Assembly: GCF_010667575.1 (NCBI RefSeq)
Contig: NZ_JAABNT010000008.1
Location: 1-64,000, forward strand
Direction: 5' to 3'
DNA: 64,000 nucleotides
From: Sulfitobacter sediminilitoris
Lineage (GTDB): Bacteria > Pseudomonadota > Alphaproteobacteria > Rhodobacterales > Rhodobacteraceae
Positions within the stretch are counted from its first letter, which is position 1; each line of letters opens with the position of its first letter. This document shows, one piece after another, positions 46,900 to 64,000 of the stretch. The notes under the pieces are model-generated. The model was not told the origin of the DNA, ran no database searches, and saw only the letters and a program-made list of their open reading frames with translations. Both the position numbers and the translations under genes were made by a program.

Positions 46900-47979
46900 T
46901 TATCCGCGGCGGCGTCCACCGGTGCGCCCGGCACGGCCACGGCCTTCCTGACCGGCTTTCGGAGCGACCTTATTGAACTTGATCCATTCGCCGCCATGCG
47001 GGTCCCGGTCAAACAGGAAGTTTGCGGCGCGGATCGCTTCCATTTCCTTGCCGGGCCGCGGCTTGGTAGAGCCGAGCCCGAAAAGCTGCACGAATACTTC
47101 GTCGTCCATGCCTTCGGGCAGCACAACACCGAGCGCATCCAACTCCGCTTTCTTTTCAGCAATCTTGGCCGCGTTTACCGGCAGGGCCACCGGGTTCATG
47201 ATGGCCGAAGTCATCCCGGCACCCATTGCCATCGGCAGGAAGGCATTGTTGATGCCATGGCGGTTGGGCAAGCCAAAAGAAATGTTGGATGCACCGCAGG
47301 TAGTATTCACACCCAGTTCCTCGCGCAGGCGGCGTACCAGCGTAAAGACCTGATGGCCTGCGGTGGCCATGGCCCCGATTGGCATCACCAAAGGGTCCAC
47401 CACGATATCATGGGCGGGGATGCCAAAATCGGCGGCCCGTTCCACGATCATTTTCGCCACGGCGAACCGGACATCCGGGTCTTCAGAGATGCCAGTATCA
47501 TCGTTTGAGATGGCGACAACCGGCACGTTGTATTTCTTGACCAGCGGGAGAACCAGCTCCAGACGCTCTTCTTCACCTGTGACAGAGTTGAGCAGCGGAC
47601 GACCTTCGCAGGCTTCCAAACCTGCCTCAAGTGCGCCTGGCACTGAGCTGTCGATGCAGATCGGTGTGTCAGTGACCGCTTGCACACGCTTGATCAACTC
47701 CGGCATCAACATCGGCTCGACAAAGTTATTGTCGGCATAGCGGGGATCTTCGGACATCTTGTTCGAGAACACCGCACCAGAGTTCACATCCAGAACGGTG
47801 GCACCCGCATTGGCCTGGGCGACGGCATCAGCCTCTACACGAGAGAAATCGCCGCGCTCCAGCTCTTCGGAAAGGATCTTGCGACCCGTTGGGTTGATCC
47901 GCTCACCGATGACGCAGAACGGCTCATCAAAGCCGATCACGGCGGTTTTGGTTTTGGATTCGATGATGGTGCGGGTCAT
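46900..47979 (-). CDS. Methyltetrahydrofolate:corrinoid methyltransferase-like protein
   Basis: A 359-residue TIM-barrel protein of the dihydropteroate synthase/MeTr fold. Landmarks are IGERINPTGRK, VLDVNSGAVFSNK, PICIDSSVPGALEAGLE, LLNSVTGEEERLE and IVVDPLVMPIGA, all typical of AcsE/MtgA-type methyltransferases that move methyl groups between tetrahydrofolate and a corrinoid protein. The tail is very Gly/Arg-rich (GRGRAGRTGGRRRG), which I have not seen in the core family. The corrinoid protein gene is not in this window. It is the last gene after a MetF-like reductase. Confidence 0.85.
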   Translation of the reverse strand: MTRTIIESKTKTAVIGFDEPFCVIGERINPTGRKILSEELERGDFSRVEADAVAQANAGATVLDVNSGAVFSNKMSEDPRYADNNFVEPMLMPELIKRVQAVTDTPICIDSSVPGALEAGLEACEGRPLLNSVTGEEERLELVLPLVKKYNVPVVAISNDDTGISEDPDVRFAVAKMIVERAADFGIPAHDIVVDPLVMPIGAMATAGHQVFTLVRRLREELGVNTTCGASNISFGLPNRHGINNAFLPMAMGAGMTSAIMNPVALPVNAAKIAEKKAELDALGVVLPEGMDDEVFVQLFGLGSTKPRPGKEMEAIRAANFLFDRDPHGGEWIKFNKVAPKAGQEGRGRAGRTGGRRRG

Positions 47980-47993
47980 TTCAGGTCCTTGGT

Positions 47994-48917
47994 TCAGGCG
48001 TTTGCAGGAACGGCAGAGGTGCCGCCGTTTTCAATTGCCCAGTTGGCGTTGGTCTTGATCCCGCCAAGCGGGAAGAAGTGCACGTTGGTGATGTTGAAGT
48101 CGGGGTTCGCGGCCTTGTGTAGAGCCAGTTCCCGGATGACGTCGGTTGGCTCGTAGGGCAGCAGCAGCTTGGTCACATCCATCGCGCGTTTCTGCAGCAC
48201 TTTCAGTGACGGGCCCACGCCGCAGGCAATGGCGAATTTGATCAGGGTCTGCAATTTGGCAGGACCGGCGATACCGATGTGAACGGGCAGGGAGATCCCG
48301 GCTTCTTTCAAGCTGTCAGCCCATCCGATGATTGGCTTGGCGTCGAATGCGAACTGCGTCGCGATCGCCATCTCGGCATCGGTGCGGGTCTGGAAGTCGT
48401 TCTTCCATTTCAGCGCAGCGTCGACGTTCGCGGTGCCGGTTGCGTCGATATCGCGGTTTCCCTCAGGGTGGCCTGCCACATGCAAACGGGTAAACCCTGC
48501 CTCATCAAAAAGCCCTGTTTCCATCAGTTGCATGGAATCGCTGAACTCACCGAGAGGCTGCGCCACACCACCGGCCAGCAGCAGCCCCTGGCGCACGTCC
48601 GCTTCGCCCTGATAGCGGGCGATCCAGTCGGCCAATGTCGCGCGGTCCTTGATGATCCTTGCGGGAAAGTGCGGCATAACCTTGTAGCCGTCGGCATTTA
48701 GTCGTTTGGCTGTGGCGACCATCTCCTCGATGGGCGTGCCTTCGATATGAGCGATGTAGACGCGGGTGCCTCCGGGCAGCAATGCGCGGAAATCCTCGAC
48801 CTTCTCGGCGGTGCGGGGCATTACCTCGATGGAGTAGTCCTTCAGTAGGGCTTCAATCTCTGCCCCTGCAATCGGGGCGGCAGGGGCTTCCTTGCGGCGG
48901 AAATTCAACAAAGCCAT
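47994..48917 (-). CDS. Methylenetetrahydrofolate reductase (MetF-like)
   Basis: A 307-residue flavoprotein-like TIM barrel. YIAHIEGTPIEEMVATAKRL, GYKVMPHFPARIIKD, LLLAGGVAQPLGEFSDSMQL and FTRLHVAGHPEGNRDID fit the MetF family; ATQFAFDAKPIIGW is the folate-contact region. The start at 48917 is preceded by AAAGGA; an upstream Met lacks one. It probably interconverts methyl- and methylene-tetrahydrofolate, passing methyl groups taken up by the neighbouring methyltransferase. Direction is not known. It is a divergent relative of the MetF that feeds methionine synthesis. Confidence 0.82.
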   Translation of the reverse strand: MALLNFRRKEAPAAPIAGAEIEALLKDYSIEVMPRTAEKVEDFRALLPGGTRVYIAHIEGTPIEEMVATAKRLNADGYKVMPHFPARIIKDRATLADWIARYQGEADVRQGLLLAGGVAQPLGEFSDSMQLMETGLFDEAGFTRLHVAGHPEGNRDIDATGTANVDAALKWKNDFQTRTDAEMAIATQFAFDAKPIIGWADSLKEAGISLPVHIGIAGPAKLQTLIKFAIACGVGPSLKVLQKRAMDVTKLLLPYEPTDVIRELALHKAANPDFNITNVHFFPLGGIKTNANWAIENGGTSAVPANA

Positions 48918-48948
48918 GATGGTATCCTTTATCATGTGGCTCCGGGCC

Positions 48949-49245
48949 TCAGGCCCAGCCGTCGTTTGCAATCAGCGCTTTTATGCGCTCACGGTCATAT
49001 TCTGCGTCCAGACGGGCCGCTTCGGCGTCTGCCACTGCGTCTGGTTCTCCCTCGACGGGAAACGGCTCTGCTTTGCGCCATTCAGCAAGATAGGCATCCG
49101 TATCCTCGGCCCCCACTTTCATTGCCGCCCGGTCAATTGCCTGCTCAAACCGTTCCGGCAGTTGCCGCTTTGATCCGCGCCGGCCTTTGCCAACGATGAC
49201 CTGAGCGGGGATGTCGCGCCAGTAAACGATTGTGACGTCGGGCAT
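48949..49245 (-). CDS. Small virulence-factor-family protein (PF13769-like)
   Basis: A 98-residue protein that opens VTIVYWRDIPAQVIVGKGRR, the signature of the short family annotated as virulence factor (PF13769), a misleading name: it travels with MetF and corrinoid methyltransferase genes in Rhodobacteraceae. The rest is charged and helical. It is first in the three-gene minus-strand operon. Function unknown; a link to methyl transfer is inferred from the neighbours. Confidence 0.72.
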   Translation of the reverse strand: MPDVTIVYWRDIPAQVIVGKGRRGSKRQLPERFEQAIDRAAMKVGAEDTDAYLAEWRKAEPFPVEGEPDAVADAEAARLDAEYDRERIKALIANDGWA

Positions 49246-54297: not shown

Positions 54298-56325
54298 ATG
54301 ACCAAGACAAGGGTTGCCGTCGATGTAGGCGGCACATTCACCGATGTGTGCATCATGGACGAAGACACAGGTGAAATCCGTATCGAAAAGACCCCTTCGA
54401 CCCCTGATGATCCAATGCGGGCGATTTTGACCGGGGTCACGGAGGCCGATATCGATCTGGCAGATGTGACGATGTTTTCGCACGGCACCACGGTGGCGAC
54501 GAACGCATTGATCACACGCAGGCTGCCGCGCACCGCGATGGTCTGCACCGAGGGATTTCGCGATGTTGTCGAAATCCGCCGATCGAACAAGGAAGACCTC
54601 TGGGATACCTACAAGGACGTCGCCAAACCCTATATCCCGCGCCGTGACCGGCTTACGGTGACCGAACGCATAGATGCGGCAGGCAAGGTATTGCAGGAAC
54701 TGGACGAGGATCAGGCGCGCAAGGTTGCCGAAATCCTAAAAAAGCGTGGCGTTCAGGCGATTGCCGTTTGTTTCATCAATTCCTACGTCAACGGCCAGAA
54801 TGAACGGCGCATGAAAGAGATCCTCCAAGAGGTCATGCCGGATGTGCACATTTCCATTTCGTGCCAGATCATGCCGGAAATCTTCGAGCATGAGCGATTT
54901 TCAACAACGATGGTGAATGCCGCTGTGTCGCCGGTGGTGGTTGATTACGTATCGCGCCTCAGTGACAAGCTGTCGGACGGGGGGTATTCGCGCGATCTGC
55001 TGCTTCTTCATTCAGGCGGTGGTGTCATGACACCTGCCAGCGTCAAGGATTTCGCGGCGCGTCTGGCAGGATCGGGCATTGCAGCTGGTGCCATCGCCAG
55101 CCGTTTCATCGGCAACCTGTGCGGTTATGAGAATTCAATCGGCTTCGACATGGGCGGCACCAGCACGGATGTTTCCTTGGCCTATCAGGGCGAATCGACC
55201 GTTACGAAAGACTGGTACATTGAATTTGGTTACCCGATCCGGTTTCCCAGCATTGAGGTGCTGACTATCGGAGCCGGCGGCGGATCGCTGGCATGGAAGG
55301 ACGAGGGCGGCAGTCTGCGCAACGGACCACAGTCTGCGGGTGCCAACCCCGGACCCGCCTGCTACTCGAACGGAAACGAGGTGGCCACGAACAGCGATGC
55401 AAATGTGGTCTTGGGACGTTTGGGTACCAGCCTTGCCGGGGGGGATATCCAGCTTGATGCAGCATTGGCCGAAAAGGCGGTGCGGGACACGGTGGCTGAA
55501 CCATTCGGGATGGAACTGCGCGCTGCGGCCGAAGCCATCATCGACGTGGCCAATGCCAATATGGCCAACGCGGTGCGCCTGCTGTCCATTGCTCGGGGAT
55601 ATGATCCGCGTGACTTTGCACTGGTTGCTTTTGGCGGGGCAGGGGCGTTGCATGGGGCTGCGGTGGCCAAGGAGCTTTCGATCCCGGTTGTCATTGTGCC
55701 ACCAAACCCCGGCGTGACTTCGGCCATGGGCTGTCTGCTGGTCGACATTCAACACGATTTCTCGGACAGCTTTATGGCAGATGCTGCCTCGACCAAGCCC
55801 GAAGACCTTGAGGCTGCGTTCAGAAAGATCGAGGAAGAGGCCATTGCCCGCTTGCGACACGAGGGTGTGGCACCGGAAAATACCGTGCTCCAGCGCACGG
55901 TCGAGATGATGTATCAAGGTCAGTGGCGCTCGCTTGCGGTGCCAGCCCCGGCCAAGATCACCAGCACAAGCGACCTGATCGAAGGTTTCCACAACCAGCA
56001 TGAGCGTGAATACAATTTCCGCCGTGAGGACGCCCCGGTCAGCGTGTTCCGGGTTGGCGTGAAGGCGACCGGTGTTGTGCCCAAGGCCGAACTGCCCTCG
56101 CACCAGGTCGTTGTGCACAGGCCCGAACCCACAGGCCAGCGCGACGTGTGGTTCAATGGCAAGGCAAACACGTCTGATGTCTACGATCGCGCCCTTTTCA
56201 AGGCTGGGGCCGAATTCACAGGTCCGGCGATTGTCGAACAGGTGGATTCAACCGTTCTGGTCCCACCGAACGCGACCGCTGCCGTCGATCAATTTATGAA
56301 CATTCTTATCCGCGTGAAGGATTGA
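54298..56325 (+). CDS. hyuA: Hydantoinase/oxoprolinase subunit A (HyuA-like)
   Basis: ATP-dependent amide-ring hydrolase subunit A, 675 residues. It opens with an acetate-kinase-like fold: VAVDVGGTFTDVCIMDEDTG; further landmarks are FSHGTTVATNALITRRL, GFDMGGTSTDVSLAYQGE and LVAFGGAGALHGAAVA. With HyuB it would use ATP to open a five-membered ring such as a hydantoin or 5-oxoproline; acetone and acetophenone carboxylases are relatives. The start at 54298 has AGGGAA upstream. Substrate not readable. Confidence 0.92.
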   Translation: MTKTRVAVDVGGTFTDVCIMDEDTGEIRIEKTPSTPDDPMRAILTGVTEADIDLADVTMFSHGTTVATNALITRRLPRTAMVCTEGFRDVVEIRRSNKEDLWDTYKDVAKPYIPRRDRLTVTERIDAAGKVLQELDEDQARKVAEILKKRGVQAIAVCFINSYVNGQNERRMKEILQEVMPDVHISISCQIMPEIFEHERFSTTMVNAAVSPVVVDYVSRLSDKLSDGGYSRDLLLLHSGGGVMTPASVKDFAARLAGSGIAAGAIASRFIGNLCGYENSIGFDMGGTSTDVSLAYQGESTVTKDWYIEFGYPIRFPSIEVLTIGAGGGSLAWKDEGGSLRNGPQSAGANPGPACYSNGNEVATNSDANVVLGRLGTSLAGGDIQLDAALAEKAVRDTVAEPFGMELRAAAEAIIDVANANMANAVRLLSIARGYDPRDFALVAFGGAGALHGAAVAKELSIPVVIVPPNPGVTSAMGCLLVDIQHDFSDSFMADAASTKPEDLEAAFRKIEEEAIARLRHEGVAPENTVLQRTVEMMYQGQWRSLAVPAPAKITSTSDLIEGFHNQHEREYNFRREDAPVSVFRVGVKATGVVPKAELPSHQVVVHRPEPTGQRDVWFNGKANTSDVYDRALFKAGAEFTGPAIVEQVDSTVLVPPNATAAVDQFMNILIRVKD

Positions 56326-56328
56326 GCC

Positions 56329-58290
56329 GTGAACACTACAACACCACAGGAACTGGACCCGGTCACATTCGAGGTTCTCAAAAATTCATTCATCACGTCG
56401 GTCGACCAGATGGCCGAGCAGATGCTGCGGACATGTTATTCCTTTGTGATCTACAACCGTGATTTTTCCAACGCCCTGCATGACGCCGACGGCAATTGCG
56501 TGGCCCAGGGTAACGCGGATATCGCGGTCCACGTCGGCACATTGCATTACACTTGCAAGGACGTGATCCGGGCCTTTGAAGGCGATATGTATCCCGGTGA
56601 CGTCTATGCGATAAATGACCCTTATGCCGGTGGCACCCACTTCAGCGACGTGCGATTGATCCGACCCATCTTTGATGAGGAAACGCTCATCGGCTTTTCC
56701 CAGTCAAACGGGCACTGGTCCGATTTGGGCGGCTCTGTGCCCGGATCCTTCAACGTGACGGCCCATGAAATGTTCGGAGAGGCCGTGCGCATCACGCCGA
56801 TCCGGCTGTTCCACAAGGGCAAGTTCTGCTCGGATGTTGCCAACATGATCGCGGCCAATACCCGTGATCCTGCATCCATCATCGGGGACATTCATTCTCA
56901 GGCGCAGGCCACGCAGGTCTCTGAACGCGAACTGCAGAGACTGGTTGGAAAATATGGCCGGGGACAGGTTCTTCAGGGCATGAACGAGGTGCAGGATTAC
57001 GTCGAACGTGCCGTGCGCCAGCGCATCCTGGAACTGCCTGACGGCACATGGGAGGCAGTGGACTACATCGACCGTGATCCCGGTGCCGGAGAAGGCATGA
57101 TCCCCATTCACATCAAGATGACAATCAAGGGCGATCAGATCACCTATGATTTCGAAGGGAGTCACCCGACGATTTCGTCAATCTATAACTCCGCGCATGG
57201 CGCCACATTCTCAGCCGTCGTTGCGGGGATGAAGACGTTCTTTCCGGACCTCCCACTCAACAGCGGCTTCTACCGGATGGTTGATATCAAAGCGCCGAAA
57301 GGCAGTGTCGTCAGCGCTGAGTGGCCGATCGCGGTAACCGGATTTCTGATGCCGTTCGAAAAGATCATGAACGCCATTTTCGAGATGTGGTCCAAGATCA
57401 TGCCGGAACGTGCCATCGCCTGTGCCTTTAACCTCGAATATCTGCTGGCAGGGGGCAATGACCTGCGCAAGCCCGACAAGCCCATCTACATGTTCTATGA
57501 ATGGCTGCCCGGCGGTTGGGGTGGGCGCAACGGCAAAGATGGAAGCGACGTAACCACCGCCTGTTTTGGCACAGGCCTGATGTCACAGCCCTCGGAAGGG
57601 AACGAGCGGGTCAATCCCACCCGCGCGGATGAGTTCCAGATCAAGCAAGACAGTCCCGGACCGGGCAAATGGCGCGGCGGCGCCGGTGTTATCAAGGCAT
57701 CAACGCTGCTGGAGGCGGAGAATACCGTTATCTCTTATATCTGTGACCGCGAAAGGGCCGTAGTATGGGGCATCGAGGGCGGCTTGCCTTCCATGCCGCA
57801 CGGGCTGATGATCGAACATTGCGACACGGGGGAAGAGAAATGGCTTGGCTCTGTTTTTTCCAACTACAAAATCAAAAGCGGGGATCGCTTCACCCGTCCG
57901 ACTGCGGGCGGTGGTGGATTTGGCGACCCGCTTGAGCGGGACGTAGATCAGGTCAAGGAAGATGTCATAGACGAATACGTCTCGGTTGAGCGGGCCAAGA
58001 CGGACTATGGCGTGGTCATCAACGTGATTGACCGCGACATGCTGGAATATGAGGTGGACCATGACGCGACTGAAAAGGCACGCGCAGAGATACGTGCAAA
58101 CCGTGTTGCATGGGCGCGGATGGACCCCGAAAATGTCGCGCAGATGTTCAAGGATGGCCAGATCAACGAAATGGACGCAGTGCGGCGGTATGCCGTCATC
58201 CTAGATTGGGGCACGGGCGATCTGATGCCAAAATCAACGGAGCAATTCCGCGAAAGCTTTGAGCGGCGCTCGGTCGCGCATTGGAATTGA
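56329..58290 (+). CDS. hyuB: Hydantoinase/oxoprolinase subunit B (HyuB-like)
   Basis: Partner subunit, 653 residues, GTG start 3 bases after the hyuA stop. Typical segments are LDPVTFEVLKNSFITSVDQM, DVYAINDPYAGGTHFSDVRL, SNGHWSDLGGSVPGSF, PTRADEFQIKQDSPGPGKWR and PTAGGGGFGDPLERD. HyuB supplies the metal site where the phosphorylated substrate is hydrolysed (family knowledge). The C-terminal 60 residues carry extra sequence beyond the GGGGFG block. It converges with the LysR gene. Confidence 0.92.
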   Translation: MNTTTPQELDPVTFEVLKNSFITSVDQMAEQMLRTCYSFVIYNRDFSNALHDADGNCVAQGNADIAVHVGTLHYTCKDVIRAFEGDMYPGDVYAINDPYAGGTHFSDVRLIRPIFDEETLIGFSQSNGHWSDLGGSVPGSFNVTAHEMFGEAVRITPIRLFHKGKFCSDVANMIAANTRDPASIIGDIHSQAQATQVSERELQRLVGKYGRGQVLQGMNEVQDYVERAVRQRILELPDGTWEAVDYIDRDPGAGEGMIPIHIKMTIKGDQITYDFEGSHPTISSIYNSAHGATFSAVVAGMKTFFPDLPLNSGFYRMVDIKAPKGSVVSAEWPIAVTGFLMPFEKIMNAIFEMWSKIMPERAIACAFNLEYLLAGGNDLRKPDKPIYMFYEWLPGGWGGRNGKDGSDVTTACFGTGLMSQPSEGNERVNPTRADEFQIKQDSPGPGKWRGGAGVIKASTLLEAENTVISYICDRERAVVWGIEGGLPSMPHGLMIEHCDTGEEKWLGSVFSNYKIKSGDRFTRPTAGGGGFGDPLERDVDQVKEDVIDEYVSVERAKTDYGVVINVIDRDMLEYEVDHDATEKARAEIRANRVAWARMDPENVAQMFKDGQINEMDAVRRYAVILDWGTGDLMPKSTEQFRESFERRSVAHWN

Positions 58291-58340: not shown

Positions 58341-59267
58341 TTACGCGAATTCTTCGGGGCGCGCGGTGCCCATCTGGGGCGTCCCGAAAAGACTGCGGAA
58401 GTAACTTCGAAAGGCGGTCATCTCAGGTGTAAAACTTTCATCGCGCCGCCAGACAAGTCCCACGTCCATGGCAGGCACATCATCAATGATCTCTGTTGTC
58501 TCAAGCCGCCGTCCTTCCAGCGACCAGGGGCGATAAACCATGTCGGACAGGATTGACACACCCTGACCATTGGCCACCATTGACCGCACGGCCTCAATCG
58601 ACGACGTGCGCATGATGACCTGCGGCTCCATGCGGCACCGCGCCCAATACCGCTGCGAGGTATGGGCAGCCTCGTCTACGGTGAGCATCACATAGGGCTC
58701 ACGCGATATCTCCTCCAGCGTGACCTTTTCGCGTGACAAAAGGTGATGGCGCGAAGGAAGCCAGAGACGTCGGGGAGAGCGGATCAGGGTTTCGGTCGAA
58801 ATCTCAGGATTGGTAATATTCGACGTCAGCGCCACACCGATATCAATCTGGCCAGATACCAACGCGTCCTCAAGCGCTGTTCGAGACATTTCACGCAAAT
58901 TCAGCTTTATGTCCGGGAGTGTTCGGGCCAGCCGATCCAGGTGCACAGGAAGGAAGTACCCCATGACCGTATATGACGCGGCCAGATCCAGTGTCCCCTT
59001 CAGCGCGACGGCCTCGCTGGTCTGAAGAGAATCCTCGACCTTGGCAATGACGTCATAGCCGGACGCAAGAAATCTTCGTCCCGCCTCTGTCAGCGTCATG
59101 CCGAGGGAGGACCGCTGAAAAAGACGCACGCCCAGAACAGCCTCCAGTTCACGGATCGCAGCCGTTACGGCCGATTGCGAAACCGAAAGCTCGATTGCGG
59201 CCCGACTGACTTGCCCAAGCTCGGCAGTTGCAATGAAATATTTCAGATGCCGCAGGTTGTAAGACAT
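58341..59267 (-). CDS. LysR-family transcriptional regulator
   Basis: A 308-residue LysR regulator. The winged HTH (about 1-60) is NLRHLKYFIATAELGQVSRA, then SVSQSAVTAAIRELEAVLGV. The substrate domain (about 90-295) follows. Start at 59267 has a good AAGGAG. It is divergent from pxpA with a LysR-type palindrome between, so it most likely controls the pxpA operon and its own gene. The effector is probably the substrate or its product. Confidence 0.92.
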   Translation of the reverse strand: MSYNLRHLKYFIATAELGQVSRAAIELSVSQSAVTAAIRELEAVLGVRLFQRSSLGMTLTEAGRRFLASGYDVIAKVEDSLQTSEAVALKGTLDLAASYTVMGYFLPVHLDRLARTLPDIKLNLREMSRTALEDALVSGQIDIGVALTSNITNPEISTETLIRSPRRLWLPSRHHLLSREKVTLEEISREPYVMLTVDEAAHTSQRYWARCRMEPQVIMRTSSIEAVRSMVANGQGVSILSDMVYRPWSLEGRRLETTEIIDDVPAMDVGLVWRRDESFTPEMTAFRSYFRSLFGTPQMGTARPEEFA

Positions 59268-59291
59268 GCTCGGTACTCCTTGAAACGGGAA

Positions 59292-59391: not shown

Positions 59392-60165
59392 ATGTTTCGA
59401 ACCACTGTCGATCTGAACTGTGATATGGGCGAAGGCTTTGGCCACTGGAGCTACGGTGATGCGCCGGATTCAGCGTTGATGCCGCTTATCAGCTCGGCGA
59501 ACGTCGCCGCTGGTTTTCACGCAGGTGATCCAAACCAGATGGACGCGGTTGTCGGACTGGCCGCTGAACACGGTGTGGGGCTGGGTGCGCATCCCGGATA
59601 TTACGATCTGCAGGGGTTTGGGCGACGCACGATCAAGGCAAAGCCCGAAGAGCTGGTGAACGATGTGGTCTACCAAACCGGTGCGCTTCGCGAATTTGGC
59701 CGTCGCCACGGCATTGCGCTGCAACATGTGAAACCTCATGGCGCACTTTACATGGATTTTGCGGTGAGTTCCGACATGTCACGCCAGTTGGTCGATACAC
59801 TGCAGGCCACCGGACCTGACTTGTTTCTTTACTGTATGTCCGTGTCCGAGACGTATCGTATTGCTCGTGAGGTGGGCCAGCCTGTGATCCGTGAATTCTA
59901 TGCCGATCGCGACTACGACAATTCCGGTTCCATCGTATTTGCGCGCAAGATGCGCAAACTCGACCCCGAAGAGGTGGCGGAAAAATGCGTGCGCGCCTGC
60001 GTCGAGGGCAAGGTCAAAACCGTTGATGGTGATGACATTGAGATACCGTTCGAATCCATCTGTTTTCACTCTGATACGCCCGGCGCGCTGGCCATCGGCA
60101 CCGCCGTACGTGCGCAACTTACGGCGAATGGTGTGACCATCGCCGCACCAAGCCATACTTCCTGA
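59392..60165 (+). CDS. pxpA: LamB/YcsF family 5-oxoprolinase subunit A (PxpA)
   Basis: A 257-residue member of the LamB/YcsF family (PxpA), TIM-barrel-like. [14 protein letters not shown] is the usual opening; [49 protein letters not shown] and [14 protein letters not shown] give the His/Asp cluster of the active site. With PxpB and PxpC it forms ATP-dependent 5-oxoprolinase in Bacillus subtilis (family knowledge). The ATG at 59392 is preferred to an in-frame TTG at 59386. It is the first gene of the operon. Confidence 0.92.
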
Positions 60166-60199
60166 ATTCCGATCCATCACTGTCGAAAGGACCTGACCC

Positions 60200-60436
60200 T
60201 TGGCAAAACAAATCCAATCTCCGCTTCCGGGCACCTTCTATCGCAAACCGGCACCTGAAGAGCCAAACTTCATAGAAGACGGCGCAAGCATCGCCGTTGG
60301 CGATACTATCGGGCTGGTTGAGGTTATGAAGACCTTCCACGAGGTGAAAGCCGAAACAGCCGGTGACAACGCACGTTTTCAGGCCGAAAACGAAGCGCCT
60401 GTGATGGCGGGCGCCGTACTGGTGGAAATGGACTGA
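60200..60436 (+). CDS. Free biotin carboxyl carrier domain protein
   Basis: A 78-residue biotinyl/lipoyl domain. The attachment Lys44 is in LVEVMKTFHEV, a variant of the common AMKM motif; MKTF-type sites are seen in short AccB-like carriers. SPLPGTFYRKPAPEEPNFIE is the first half of the hammerhead. It starts with TTG behind GAAAGG. It stands between pxpA and a biotin carboxylase and lacks the N-terminal Ala/Pro linker of housekeeping AccB, so it is likely dedicated to this operon. Confidence 0.88.
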   Translation: MAKQIQSPLPGTFYRKPAPEEPNFIEDGASIAVGDTIGLVEVMKTFHEVKAETAGDNARFQAENEAPVMAGAVLVEMD

Positions 60437-60440
60437 TCGC

Positions 60441-61805
60441 ATGGACCTGACCGGCAAATCGCTATTTATCGCCAATCGGGGCGAAATAGCGGTCCGCATC
60501 AACCGCGCGGCCAAGGCGTTGGGCCTGAGTGTCATTCAGGGTCACTCCGAGGCAGACGCCGATATGCTGGCCGTCCGGATGGCCGATCGTGCTGTTGAAC
60601 TGGGCCCGCCAGCTGCGAACAAGTCGTATCTTGATGTTGCACGCGTGGTTGCCGTCGCAAAAGAGGCGGGTGCGGATGCTGTACATCCCGGCTACGGGTT
60701 CCTTGCAGAAAATGCGTCCTTTGCGGCAGCAGTGGAAGCGGCTGGCATGATCTTTGTCGGACCAACTGCAGATACGATTTCGCGGATGGGTGACAAGGTT
60801 GCGGCACGCGAAGCGGCAATTGCCGCCGAAGTGCCGACATCGCCTGGCAGCGATGGGCGGATCGAAGGCGTAGACGAGGGCCTGAAAGTTGCGGCCGCAA
60901 TCGGGTATCCGCTGATGATCAAGGCGGCGGCAGGCGGCGGCGGCCGTGGTATCCGCGTGGCCGAGAGCGATGACGATTTGCGCCGCCTGATCCCGCAGGC
61001 ACAAAGCGAGGCAGCCGCAGCTTTTGGCGATGGCGGGCTTTATATCGAACGCATGGTCCGCGATGCGCGCCACATCGAGGTGCAGGTTTTGGGGGACGGC
61101 AGTCGCGCCGTGCACCTTTTTGAACGCGAATGCTCTCTGCAACGTCGCCGGCAAAAGGTCTGGGAAGAAGCACCAGCTGCCTGCCTGAGCGATGCCGCCC
61201 GCACGCGGGTGTGCGATGCATCCGTACGCATGGCCGAAGCAGTAAATTACCGCGGGGCAGGGACGCTGGAATTCCTCTATGAACCGGAACGCGATGAATT
61301 CTACTTTATGGAGATGAATACCCGAATTCAGGTCGAACACCCCGTTACAGAGATGATCACGGGTGTCGATCTGGTACAGGAGATGATCCGCATTGCCTTT
61401 GGGGAACCTCTGCGTCTGGCTCAAGACGACGTATCAATGAGTGGTCATTCCATCGAAGTGCGCGTCAACGCGGAAGACCCTTCAAACAACTTCATGCCAT
61501 TTCCCGGCCTTGTTGGTGCGATGGCGATGCCCGCCAACGCCCGATTTGATACGATGTTGTATGAAGGCTATGCGATTCCGCCGTTCTACGATTCACTTCT
61601 GGGTAAACTGATCGTGCACGGGGCAAACCGTGAAGCAGCGATGAACGCTCTTGCGACCGCCCTTGACGAGATCCGTATCGAGGGGCTGAAGACCACTTTG
61701 CCGCTGTTTCGCGCGTTGGTGCGCGACGCGGACATCCGGGCTGATAAGGCCACAACATCCTATCTTGAGACGTGGCTGGAAAGCCATGCAATCGACGCCG
61801 CCTGA
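60441..61805 (+). CDS. Biotin carboxylase (AccC-like)
   Basis: A complete biotin carboxylase of 454 residues: N-terminal SLFIANRGEIAVRINRAAKA, ATP-grasp with the Gly loop IKAAAGGGGRGIRVAE, EMNTRIQVEHPVTEMITGVD, and the C-terminal PSNNFMPFPGLVG. It carboxylates the biotin of the neighbouring carrier using ATP and bicarbonate. No carboxyltransferase of the AccAD type is nearby; instead pxpBC, related to the carboxyltransferase of urea carboxylase, follow. It starts four bases after the carrier. Confidence 0.92.
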   Translation: MDLTGKSLFIANRGEIAVRINRAAKALGLSVIQGHSEADADMLAVRMADRAVELGPPAANKSYLDVARVVAVAKEAGADAVHPGYGFLAENASFAAAVEAAGMIFVGPTADTISRMGDKVAAREAAIAAEVPTSPGSDGRIEGVDEGLKVAAAIGYPLMIKAAAGGGGRGIRVAESDDDLRRLIPQAQSEAAAAFGDGGLYIERMVRDARHIEVQVLGDGSRAVHLFERECSLQRRRQKVWEEAPAACLSDAARTRVCDASVRMAEAVNYRGAGTLEFLYEPERDEFYFMEMNTRIQVEHPVTEMITGVDLVQEMIRIAFGEPLRLAQDDVSMSGHSIEVRVNAEDPSNNFMPFPGLVGAMAMPANARFDTMLYEGYAIPPFYDSLLGKLIVHGANREAAMNALATALDEIRIEGLKTTLPLFRALVRDADIRADKATTSYLETWLESHAIDAA

Positions 61806-61855
61806 GCGCGGCAGCATATCGCCGGGCTCGACCGTTCGGCAAGGAGGCGCAACAT

Positions 61856-62731
61856 ATGAAAACACGGTATTCCTTTGGCGGTGACGAACATATATTTGTC
61901 GAGGTTGATGAAGAAATGTCGCTGGACGCTTTCTTCAAGAGCCTTTCGATGACCAATGCAGTCCGTGACAGCAACATTGAGGGCGTAACAGAAATCTGTC
62001 CCGCGAACGCGTCGTTCCAGATCAAGTTCGACCCGGACCAGATCCATCCGAACGATATGCTGGCAGAACTGAAAAAGCTCGAAAGCACAGCAGAGGCTGC
62101 TGAAAAGCGAATGACGACGCGGATCATCGAAGTCCCGGTGTACTACAATGATCCCTGGACGCATGAGACATTGATGCGTTTTCGCGAACGCCATCAGGAC
62201 CCCGATGGGACGGACCTTGAATATGCGGCGCGTATCAATGGGTTCGACACGGTCGATCAATTCATCGAAGCGCATCACGCCAATCCATGGTTCGTGTCTA
62301 TGGTCGGCTTCGTGTCGGGCCTTCCGTTTCTCTATCAACTTGTTGAACGCGAGCGGCAGCTGCAGGTCCCAAAGTATCTGCGTCCTCGCACCGACACGCC
62401 AAAATTGACAGTGGGCTATGGTGGCTGTTTTTCCTGCATCTATTCGGTCCGTGGCGCAGGCGGCTACCAGATGTTCGGCATCACACCGATGCCAATCTTC
62501 GATCCTGAGCAAAAGACCAGCTATCTCAAGGACTTCATGGTGTTCTTTAAGCCGGGTGACATCGTCAAGTGGAACCCCATCGACCGCACGGAATATGACC
62601 GCATTCTGAAAGAAGTTGAGGCAGGAACCTACGAGCCAAAGATTGCAGAGGTCGAATTCGATCTGGATGCGTTCAACAAGGATATCGAGGGCACGAATGC
62701 CAAGCTGAAGGAGGCGCTCAATGTCGGTTAA
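61856..62731 (+). CDS. pxpB: PxpB / KipI-like allophanate hydrolase subunit 1 domain
   Basis: A 291-residue AHS1 (KipI) protein, cyclophilin-like. An N-terminal segment (about 1-85, YSFGGDEHIFVEVDEEMSLD) precedes the usual TRIIEVPVYYNDPWT, then GFVSGLPFLYQL, the PKYLRPRTDTPKLTVGYGG strand and GGYQMFGITPMPIFDPEQKT. It is longer than the 230-250 of PxpB/KipI. In urea carboxylase this fold and AHS2 form the carboxyltransferase. The start at 61856 has a perfect AAGGAGG. It overlaps pxpC by 11 bases. Confidence 0.9.
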   Translation: MKTRYSFGGDEHIFVEVDEEMSLDAFFKSLSMTNAVRDSNIEGVTEICPANASFQIKFDPDQIHPNDMLAELKKLESTAEAAEKRMTTRIIEVPVYYNDPWTHETLMRFRERHQDPDGTDLEYAARINGFDTVDQFIEAHHANPWFVSMVGFVSGLPFLYQLVERERQLQVPKYLRPRTDTPKLTVGYGGCFSCIYSVRGAGGYQMFGITPMPIFDPEQKTSYLKDFMVFFKPGDIVKWNPIDRTEYDRILKEVEAGTYEPKIAEVEFDLDAFNKDIEGTNAKLKEALNVG

Positions 62732-63692
62732 GGTAATAAAACCCGGATTGTTGACAACTGTGCAAGACCTTGGGCGGCCCGGATATTTCCATTTGGGTAT
62801 CCCAATGGGCGGCGCTATGGATCGCCTGGCGCTGCGTGCGGGCAATATGCTGGTGGGCAACGACGAAGATGCGGCAGCACTTGAGGCTGTGTTCATGGGG
62901 CCAGAGCTTGCCTTTGAAGCTGATGCAGTGGTTGCCGTCACTGGCGCCGAGATGCCCATATTCGTCGATGACGAAGAACAGCAGGGCTGGACAGCTTTTG
63001 AGATCAAGGCGGGACAGGTGCTGAGCTTTGGTTTTCTCAAGTCCGGCGCACGTGCCTATATCGCAATTTCCGGGGGCATCGACACGCCGCCTGCTTTGGG
63101 ATCGCGGTCGACTTATGCGATTGGGGCACTGGGTGGTGTTAATGGTCGCGCGATTGCGGCTGAAGACGTTTTGCCATTGGGTCAGGCAGGCACGTCCAAG
63201 ACCGGAGCGACTGTGCCGCCGGAGTTGCGCCGTGGTCCCGGATCACCTGCGGAACTGCGGGTTTTGCCGGGGTTATACTGGCATCGCATCACGGAGGCCG
63301 CGCAAGAACATTTTTTTGAAGACGATTGGACAGTTGCACCTGAAGCTGACCGGATGGGCTACCGCTTCCGCAATGGCCGTCCACTTGAATTTGTCGAACG
63401 TGAACAGCCCTTTGGCGCGGGATCGGATCCGTCAAACATTGTCGATGGCTGTTATCCCTATGGCTCTGTTCAGGTGCCCGGTGGGACAGAACCGATCGTT
63501 CTGCATCGCGATGCGGTTTCAGGCGGCGGGTACTTTATGATCGGAACGGTGATATCGGCAGATATGGACCTGATCGGACAGCTACAGCCGCATGTGCCGG
63601 TGAAGTTCGTCAAGGTCGACATGGACACAGCACTGGACGCGCGGCACGAACGTGCTGCCCAGATCGATGCCATGCGGGCCGCATTACGGTGA
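62721..63692 (+). CDS. pxpC: PxpC / KipA-like allophanate hydrolase subunit 2 domain
   Basis: A 323-residue AHS2 (KipA, biotin-dependent carboxyltransferase) protein: VIKPGLLTTVQDLGRPGYFH, GIPMGGAMDRLALRAGNMLV, YIAISGGIDTPPALGSRSTY and the final CYPYGSVQVPGGTEPIVLHR. With PxpB it should make the carboxyltransferase or ring-activating part. Length is typical. Its stop overlaps the next start (GTGA). Confidence 0.92.
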   Translation: MSVKVIKPGLLTTVQDLGRPGYFHLGIPMGGAMDRLALRAGNMLVGNDEDAAALEAVFMGPELAFEADAVVAVTGAEMPIFVDDEEQQGWTAFEIKAGQVLSFGFLKSGARAYIAISGGIDTPPALGSRSTYAIGALGGVNGRAIAAEDVLPLGQAGTSKTGATVPPELRRGPGSPAELRVLPGLYWHRITEAAQEHFFEDDWTVAPEADRMGYRFRNGRPLEFVEREQPFGAGSDPSNIVDGCYPYGSVQVPGGTEPIVLHRDAVSGGGYFMIGTVISADMDLIGQLQPHVPVKFVKVDMDTALDARHERAAQIDAMRAALR

Positions 63693-64000
63693 CCTCTGCG
63701 GCGGCCTCCACCTTGGCGGCACCGCCGGTGCACAAGGAACTGGCACCCTTACGGCTGCTTGGGACCTCGGTAACACAGGTAGAGGCCGTCAAGTCCGCCG
63801 CCGAAGCGGATCTGGGCATCGCGCTTGATTTTGTAACGCTTGATGGCGCGGCAGCCCAGCGACGTGGTGCGCTACAGCCGCGCAGTTTTGATGTCTATGA
63901 TCAGTGGTTTCACGATCTTGACCTTGTCTGGCCCACCGGATCGCTGCAGCCAATAGAGATCGCGCGCCTGCACCGTTGGGAGGACATCAACGAGCTGCCC
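63689..64000 (+). CDS. ABC transporter substrate-binding protein (partial at window end)
   Basis: The first 104 codons of a solute-binding protein, cut off by the window. A GTG start overlaps the pxpC stop by four bases. It reads PLRLLGTSVTQVEAVKSAAE and SFDVYDQWFHDLDLVWPTGS, then IEIARLHRWEDINELP, which resembles family 1/polyamine-type binding proteins. Those normally begin with a signal peptide; none is present before the first conserved block, so either the true start is unusual or the protein stays inside. It points to uptake of the operon's substrate. Confidence 0.75.
   Translation, partial: MTSAAASTLAAPPVHKELAPLRLLGTSVTQVEAVKSAAEADLGIALDFVTLDGAAAQRRGALQPRSFDVYDQWFHDLDLVWPTGSLQPIEIARLHRWEDINELP

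Follow-up and report, generated by a model that had tools for sequence, protein, structure and literature searches.

A five-gene operon of Sulfitobacter sediminilitoris probably encodes a biotin-dependent N-carboxylase coupled to a PxpA-type hydrolase

Among the enzymes that spend ATP on opening amide bonds, two systems come closest to the locus described here. Urea carboxylase and urea amidolyase (K. lactis, PDB 3va7 and 5i8i) join a biotin carboxylase (BC) and a biotin carrier to a carboxyltransferase (CT) of the CT_A_B and CT_C_D folds, and the prokaryotic 5-oxoprolinase PxpABC combines the hydrolase subunit PxpA with two subunits, PxpB and PxpC, of the same CT_C_D and CT_A_B families. In a 64,000-nucleotide stretch of Sulfitobacter sediminilitoris contig NZ_JAABNT010000008.1, called the window hereafter, elements of both are found side by side in one operon of five genes: a pxpA-like gene, a free biotin carrier, a BC, pxpB and pxpC (Table 1). 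From sequence comparison we consider it probable that the products of these genes form a dissociated N-carboxylase that depends on biotin and is coupled to a hydrolase, acting in the manner of urea amidolyase and with PxpA replacing allophanate hydrolase. With urea amidolyase and urea carboxylase the operon has in common the CT folds, the catalytic lysine, the presence of BC and carrier, and the CT clade, whereas it is distributed over five polypeptides, has a BC of the AccC branch and carries PxpA instead of allophanate hydrolase. With PxpABC it shares the PxpA family and its conserved positions as well as both CT-type subunits; its PxpB, however, is longer, belongs to another clade and has lysine for arginine at the position of the catalytic base, and a dedicated BC and carrier are added. 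ATP-driven lactam opening is also known from caprolactamase/HyuAB, which belongs to other protein families and works without biotin, but has relatives adjoining the operon; the caprolactamase paper, as far as its text was accessible, discusses a carboxylated lactim intermediate (PMC8453981).

All five genes lie on the plus strand with intergenic distances of 34, 4, 50 and −11 nt in the order pxpA, carrier, BC, pxpB and pxpC, and their proteins match LamB_YcsF, Biotin_lipoyl, three biotin-carboxylase domains, CT_C_D and CT_A_B, each over the Pfam cut-off. The tight operon described in the original prediction is thus backed by domain assignments, and the biotinyl position that it proposed for the carrier, Lys44, appears in the translation within a predicted biotinylation motif (EVMK44T). 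The BC aligns over nearly its full length with solved BCs (464.9 bits to 2c00) and retains, among others, the motifs MGDK, MIKAAAGGGG, QRRRQK and EMNTRIQVEHPVTE, which we take, from general knowledge of residue roles, to be catalytic. The three hallmarks of a biotin-dependent carboxylase, namely BC motifs, a lysine in a biotinylation motif and a carboxyltransferase, are all encoded here.

This arrangement recurs in many other genomes. With PxpB as query, at least 584 relatives were confirmed in genome contigs (one genome per species), and the best 80 were fetched, a choice that is biased toward close relatives. The order pxpA-carrier-BC-pxpB-pxpC is present in 75 of these 80 loci, and the remaining five consist of BC-pxpB-pxpC on contigs that end upstream. 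Because 75 of the 80 best relatives share it, the five-gene order, which had been proposed as something to look for in other genomes, is not a product of chance. Two pairs in the collection are not independent: L059 and L063 are one contig, and L136 and L138 have identical PxpBs. Over all operon loci the carrier is present in 91 of 96, the five others being loci whose contigs end upstream, and its motif reads EVMKT in 66 carriers, EVMKS in 23, and EIMKT and EAMKT in one each. Among plasmids, 66 of 591 records with a PxpB match reach at least 60% identity.

As a second sample we used 190 genomes of the class Alphaproteobacteria that were selected independently of this gene. Carrier matches above 100 bits occur in 12 of them, with a CT_C_D gene adjoining in 12 of 12, while three weaker matches that are still over the cut-off (88-92 bits) have no adjoining CT_C_D gene. 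The full order is found in 10 of these 12 operon genomes; in G001 pxpA lies about 5 kb upstream of the rest of the set, and in G027 pxpA, carrier, pxpB and pxpC are present on a 4.7-kb contig (L054 348-3243). Reshuffled versions exist, too. The complete set is present on plasmids of Haladaptatus and Natronorubrum (L197 5290-10192 and L198 7962-13109), where BC is read from the opposite strand and pxpC is followed by the carrier gene; the PxpBs of these plasmids are 53% identical to the window PxpB. Within the same class as the window, locus L156 of genome G081 has the order pxpA-BC-pxpB-pxpC-carrier. A second pxpA-pxpB-pxpC set that has no biotin genes of its own and looks decayed adjoins the full operon at L109 (3884-5977).

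The names PxpB and PxpC are misleading for the two CT subunits: judged by comparison of protein families, the window PxpB is closer to the CT part of urea carboxylase. In a PxpB tree of 65 rows, a quick tree with no bootstrap and no outgroup to which 25 of the 97 operon rows were given and from which L163 was left out, the operon rows (25), the CT parts of urea carboxylases (7) and four rows from G081 are split from 29 ordinary PxpBs with an SH-aLRT of 100. Further columns follow the same division; among them, Y204 of PxpB and D242 of PxpC are common to operon and urea carboxylase, and Trp and Ser, respectively, stand in their place in 97% of the ordinary rows (29 in the case of PxpB). Another such position is the presumed base of the CT site. 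For the urea amidolyase of K. lactis (KlUA), the accessible part of the published work names Lys1605 as most likely the general base, and its Table 2 gives 0.095 of kcat for the variant K1605A (PMC5770610). By alignment to 5i8i, Lys173 of the window PxpB corresponds to this residue. The column holds Lys in 97 of 97 operon rows (95 of them distinct, and one being the second, decayed-looking copy of L109), in seven of seven urea carboxylases and in both haloarchaeal PxpBs, as against Arg in all 32 ordinary PxpB rows of the class sample; L163, which is incomplete with a gap at this column, stands outside the Lys count, and the fragment G127:C361 is not included.

Profile scores and structural comparison point in the same direction with less resolution. 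On NCBIfam the window PxpB scores 124.5 bits with TIGR02712 (urea carboxylase) versus 73 bits with TIGR00370 (PxpB, cut-off 145.55), and the window PxpC stays below the NF045499 cut-off of 500 with 214.4 bits. A second set in this genome, at C12, is also under both cut-offs (79.2 bits for TIGR00370 and 178.4 bits for NF045499), and the listed matches of its PxpB do not contain TIGR02712. Since this other PxpB fails likewise, the equivalog cut-off was discarded as proof of difference, being a weak test. TIGR02712 is matched only in parts, by BC with 519.3 bits and by PxpC with 233.9 bits besides the value for PxpB, and no single polypeptide reaches its cut-off of 1303.85. Among the 57 rows of CT_C_D matches in the 190 class genomes, the 12 of operon type score 120-147 bits, the seven fused urea carboxylases 136-147 and the four from G081 136-163; two further rows are fragments of G127, and the 32 ordinary ones score 155-251 bits except for G183 (145) and G036 (132). 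A predicted model of the window PxpB (mean pLDDT 90.6) finds its best Foldseek matches in urea amidolyase and urea carboxylase (TMq 0.82). By query length, PxpB/KipI chains score 0.60 at most, which comes partly from shorter chains, the full-length ones giving 0.78-0.82 by target length; on account of this chain-length effect Foldseek was rejected as a sharp discriminator for PxpB. For the PxpC model, E. coli YbgK and urea carboxylase are matches of the same quality (TMq 0.86-0.88), and the fold of this subunit does not discriminate.

A link to biotin is also seen in the surroundings of related operons. bioY, a gene of the biotin-uptake family PF02632 as confirmed on a representative, lies within 18 of 96 operon loci and in none of 30 control or seven urea-carboxylase loci, the control stretches being shorter and the controls including L162, which has biotin genes, and L163. 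Over the 12 class-sample operon genomes, about 52 Mb in total, bioY occurs 15 times; in five of the 12 bioY is located at most 6 kb from the operon, in four directly after pxpC, and by our own arithmetic about 0.07 would be expected by chance within 20-kb stretches. On an Acidiphilium plasmid it is bioB that comes after pxpC. The bioY gene of S. sediminilitoris itself is found on C56, away from the operon.

Similarly informative is what the genome holds besides the operon. A separate accB-accC pair is present at C23; the operon pair is not the housekeeping pair, which agrees with the dedicated carrier and carboxylase put forward in the original prediction. The pxpB-pxpC-pxpA set at C12 comes without biotin genes and stands behind DctP-DctQ-DctM genes for a TRAP transporter. 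As TRAP receptors of Bordetella are known to bind 5-oxoproline, according to the part of PMC13274462 that was available, the C12 set has the better claim to being the ordinary 5-oxoprolinase of this organism. In the PxpA tree 28 operon PxpAs, including those of the window, L156 and both haloarchaeal plasmids, are separated from 27 others by a branch with SH-aLRT 99. Of the positions compared over 91 operon and 27 other rows (the second PxpA copies of L109 and L129 being set aside), 28 are conserved in both groups, 13 of them D, E, H or K, and because of this shared set operon and ordinary PxpA probably hydrolyse by the same chemistry.

Taken together, the CT clade, the lysine, the BC and biotinylation motifs, the bioY and bioB neighbours, the reshuffled sets and the separate accB-accC pair argue for a urea-carboxylase-like enzyme that has a biotin step of its own. 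The parts, their linkage, a putative catalytic lysine, the BC motifs and the kinship of the CT to urea carboxylase are what can be read from the DNA, and on this level they speak strongly for a dedicated N-carboxylase that depends on biotin and is coupled to PxpA. In the proposed path, BC would use ATP and bicarbonate to form carboxybiotin on the putatively biotinylated Lys44 of the carrier. The carrier would then bring carboxybiotin to PxpB-PxpC, where Lys173 could act as general base and a small lactam or cyclic amide would receive the CO2 on its amide nitrogen. The N-carboxylated and thereby activated amide would be hydrolysed by PxpA, and the product carbamate would release CO2, so that the net result would be a ring opening powered by ATP with bicarbonate as catalyst. 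What we infer here is the biotinylation, the atom that accepts CO2, the succession of the steps and the identity of the substrate.

Several observations weigh against this interpretation. In a BC tree of 57 rows, with 24 operon rows plus L116 (mislabelled 'other') and with the short L035 left out, the operon BCs form one clade (SH-aLRT 99) beside AccC (93) and apart from the BC of urea carboxylase. Genome G027 has no BC on its 4.7-kb operon contig, and none over the NF009471 cut-off in the 95%-complete genome; its best BC, with 600.9 bits versus a cut-off of 686, adjoins accB. Perhaps the operon-type BC is replaceable and a housekeeping BC is borrowed there instead. In G081 the base column contains Lys in three CT copies and Leu in one (L158), and at L157 and L159 the Lys-type CT pairs have no BC, carrier or PxpA match in the fetched stretch. 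Biotin parts also adjoin some Arg-type PxpBC, meaning that the biotin link is not confined to the Lys-type operon, and the neighbouring genes vary among operon loci and do not point to a single substrate. The original prediction of a dissociated urea-carboxylase-like enzyme accordingly stands in part: CT clade, catalytic lysine and the operon's own biotin parts support it, but a split-up urea carboxylase throughout had to be rejected for the BC half, whose nearest relative is AccC, and for that reason the enzyme is better described as a composite. The BC of L156 groups with those of urea carboxylase and acyl-CoA carboxylase (SH-aLRT 96), thus coming from a different BC branch than the window type, which suggests that BC may have been recruited to this CT twice. 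Across L156-L159, G081 has four CT pairs of the urea-carboxylase clade with biotin parts adjoining one only, in the fetched stretches; the four pairs may share one BC and carrier.

Other explanations can be judged from the same data. A true split urea carboxylase that produces allophanate from urea would have the CT clade and catalytic lysine that the operon indeed shares with this enzyme. We nevertheless regard it as quite unlikely, given that the genome has a urease, that none of its 12 matches to the allophanate hydrolase model TIGR02713 attains the cut-off of 511.05 bits (the highest scores 188.7), that PxpA occupies the place of the hydrolase in 75 of 75 complete loci, and that dozens of columns invariant in the operon differ from urea carboxylase. 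This constant company of PxpA, extending to both haloarchaeal sets, also speaks against a reading in which the carboxylated product is itself the goal and PxpA acts on a different compound or at a different step; the separate branches of the operon PxpAs would fit such a division of labour, which we hold to be unlikely, if somewhat less so than urea as substrate.

More conventional readings deny the biotin genes a part in the reaction. The operon might encode an ordinary 5-oxoprolinase PxpABC that phosphorylates 5-oxoproline directly, with the biotin genes incidental. The window-type PxpA retains the conserved positions of ordinary PxpA, and a 2026 paper, in the portion available, assumes that PxpB and PxpC phosphorylate 5-oxoproline (PMC13274462). 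But from bacteria to archaea, and through several gene orders, the biotin genes remain with the set, the CT belongs to the urea-carboxylase clade, and a second pxpBCA set stands behind the TRAP transporter elsewhere in the genome, all of which makes incidental biotin genes very improbable. Least probable of all, and in our view hardly credible, is that carrier and BC work for acetyl-CoA carboxylase as a spare accBC pair. Both proteins pass NCBIfam cut-offs of that name (NF009471 for BC, NF005457 for the carrier), which is evidence for a name and not for a function, and the BC is nearest to the AccC branch; against this stand the separate accB-accC pair at C23, the operon BC clade of its own and the fixed linkage to CT and PxpA, as well as the carrier motif, which is EVMKT or EVMKS in 89 of 91 carriers compared with EAMK at L162 and L199, whose carriers are AccB-like.

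The Arg-type sets with biotin parts deserve separate consideration. In Lactiplantibacillus biotin parts are located beside an Arg-type PxpBC whose PxpB is over its cut-off. At L162 (723-9451) TRAP transporter genes are followed by an AccB-like carrier, BC, Arg-type PxpB, PxpC and PxpA. Plasmids of Neorhizobium, Bartonella and Shinella (L205 2066-8277, L204 1985-8467 and L200 3069-9317) resemble the operon in having PxpA, CT, BC and carrier in one gene row, and differ from it in Arg at the base column and in fusion of PxpB with PxpC and of BC with the biotin carboxyl carrier protein (BCCP). The same rows contain an NRAMP-type transporter and a D-glutamate-cyclase-family gene, which point to 5-oxoproline; in C. 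glutamicum, according to the accessible part of PMC13274462, growth on 5-oxoproline requires the NRAMP-type PxpT. These are apparently 5-oxoproline gene rows with a biotin carboxylase of their own. Three further Arg-type plasmid loci show no biotin genes within 5 kb in gene tables that are incomplete, and among the 32 ordinary loci of the class sample a BC or carrier match was found in L162 only, in fetched stretches of which several end at contig ends. Because Arg-type sets with biotin parts exist, Lys173 was rejected as a strict sign that biotin is used; what it identifies is only membership in the urea-carboxylase-like clade.

A structural record, PDB 9yx5, describes by its title and chain names MSMEG_0435-MSMEG_0436 of M. 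smegmatis, KipI/KipA-type proteins, bound to a long chain acyl-CoA carboxylase complex. They share with the operon the association with a biotin-carboxylase alpha subunit and differ from it in being Arg-type by alignment. In view of this complex and of the biotin parts beside Arg-type sets, ordinary 5-oxoprolinase possibly works on carboxybiotin, too. In the most general form of the idea the whole PxpABC family would be biotin-dependent, and no phosphorylation of 5-oxoproline would be needed: ATP would be spent by a BC, either dedicated or borrowed from AccB-AccC, PxpB-PxpC would carboxylate the lactam nitrogen, and PxpA would hydrolyse the N-carboxylactam. We put this forward tentatively and think it rather doubtful as a statement about the entire family, as the phosphorylation assumed in the 2026 paper and a report of ATP hydrolysis by co-purified PxpB and PxpC, cited in the part of PMC8453981 that could be consulted, both stand against it.

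Hints at the substrate come from neighbouring genes. A TorT-like binding protein and a sugar-type ABC ATPase are each found at 50 of 95 operon loci, and further variable neighbours are a second ABC transporter with short-chain dehydrogenases, HyuAB, and a polysaccharide-deacetylase-type gene (7 of 91). Genes for GABA transaminase and succinate-semialdehyde dehydrogenase (at least 50% identity; representatives over NCBIfam cut-offs) occur at 12 of 95 operon loci each and together at 11, versus none of 30 control and none of seven urea-carboxylase loci, with the controls being fewer and shorter (378 kb of control and 121 kb of urea-carboxylase stretches compared with 1803 kb for the operon). In Ruegeria sp. 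TM1040 (L141 6914-10381) both genes and a cupin gene stand upstream of the operon. In the 12 class-sample operon genomes a single gene passes TIGR00700, and it is located at C12 of the window genome, far from the operon. As a lead, the pair hints at 2-pyrrolidinone, whose opening gives GABA, in some lineages and not for the window.

Within the window and just beyond it, the operon has two HyuAB pairs, an amidase and an isochorismatase-type hydrolase as neighbours. The HyuA-HyuB pairs flank the operon region at 54298-58290 of the window and at L003 14333-18978 (C78:74333-78978), the latter being followed by the isochorismatase-type hydrolase; whether the HyuA-like and HyuB-like proteins take part in the pathway of the operon is uncertain. 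The divergent LysR gene is probably the regulator of the five genes, and an upstream LysR gene on the opposite strand is clustered in 56 of 91 loci at distances of up to 8.6 kb. Homologues of the solute-binding protein are clustered in 24 of 91 loci, at a median position directly after pxpC. Perhaps the region is a catabolic island for N-heterocycles, and the most likely substrate class is a small lactam or a cyclic ureide. At some distance, at 46900-48971 on the minus strand, adjacent genes look like a pterin-dependent methyltransferase and a methylenetetrahydrofolate reductase, judged from reading of the translations.

Table 1. Position and profile matches of the operon genes and neighbouring features in the window
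Feature	Position	Strand	Profile matches
pxpA-like LamB/YcsF hydrolase subunit, 257 aa	59392..60165	+	PF03746 289.7 bits; NF003814 287.4 bits (cut-off 226)
Free biotin carrier, 78 aa, TTG start, Lys44 in EVMKT	60200..60436	+	PF00364 over cut-off; NF005457 111.9 bits (cut-off 87)
Biotin carboxylase (BC), 454 aa	60441..61805	+	three BC domains (Pfam); NF009471 over cut-off
Carboxyltransferase (CT) subunit CD, 'PxpB', long, 291 aa, Lys173	61856..62731	+	PF02682
Carboxyltransferase subunit AB, 'PxpC', 323 aa	62721..63692	+	PF02626; TIGR00724 273, TIGR02712 234, NF045499 214 bits
Divergent LysR regulator (probable)	58341..59276	-	PF03466, PF00126
Solute-binding protein start, continues to C78:64885; first gene of downstream ABC transporter block	63689..64000	+	
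HyuA-like subunit (hydantoinase/oxoprolinase/caprolactamase alpha type)	54298..56325	+	PF01968, PF05378, PF19278; NF050156 best, under cut-off
HyuB-like subunit	56329..58290	+	PF02538; NF050157 best, under cut-off

Pieces of this picture have been reported before. In annotated records the operon genes are labelled 'acetyl-CoA carboxylase' and '5-oxoprolinase'. For Lactiplantibacillus, additional BCCP and BC genes and pxpB-pxpC are presented as separate findings in the accessible part of PMC12427679, and a biotin carboxylase study of 2011, likewise available in part, noted paired CT-like genes, left their function unassigned and kept open whether they cooperate with other BCs (PMC3199775). In the open-access literature, as far as its texts could be consulted, no link between BC or BCCP and PxpABC was found; subscription papers and preprints lie outside this scope, and a prior description is possible. 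If the proposed function holds true, biotin-driven amide activation, known for urea, would extend to another class of substrates with a different hydrolase. It would also make testable how PxpB and PxpC, with their carboxyltransferase fold, use ATP in the hydrolysis of 5-oxoproline.

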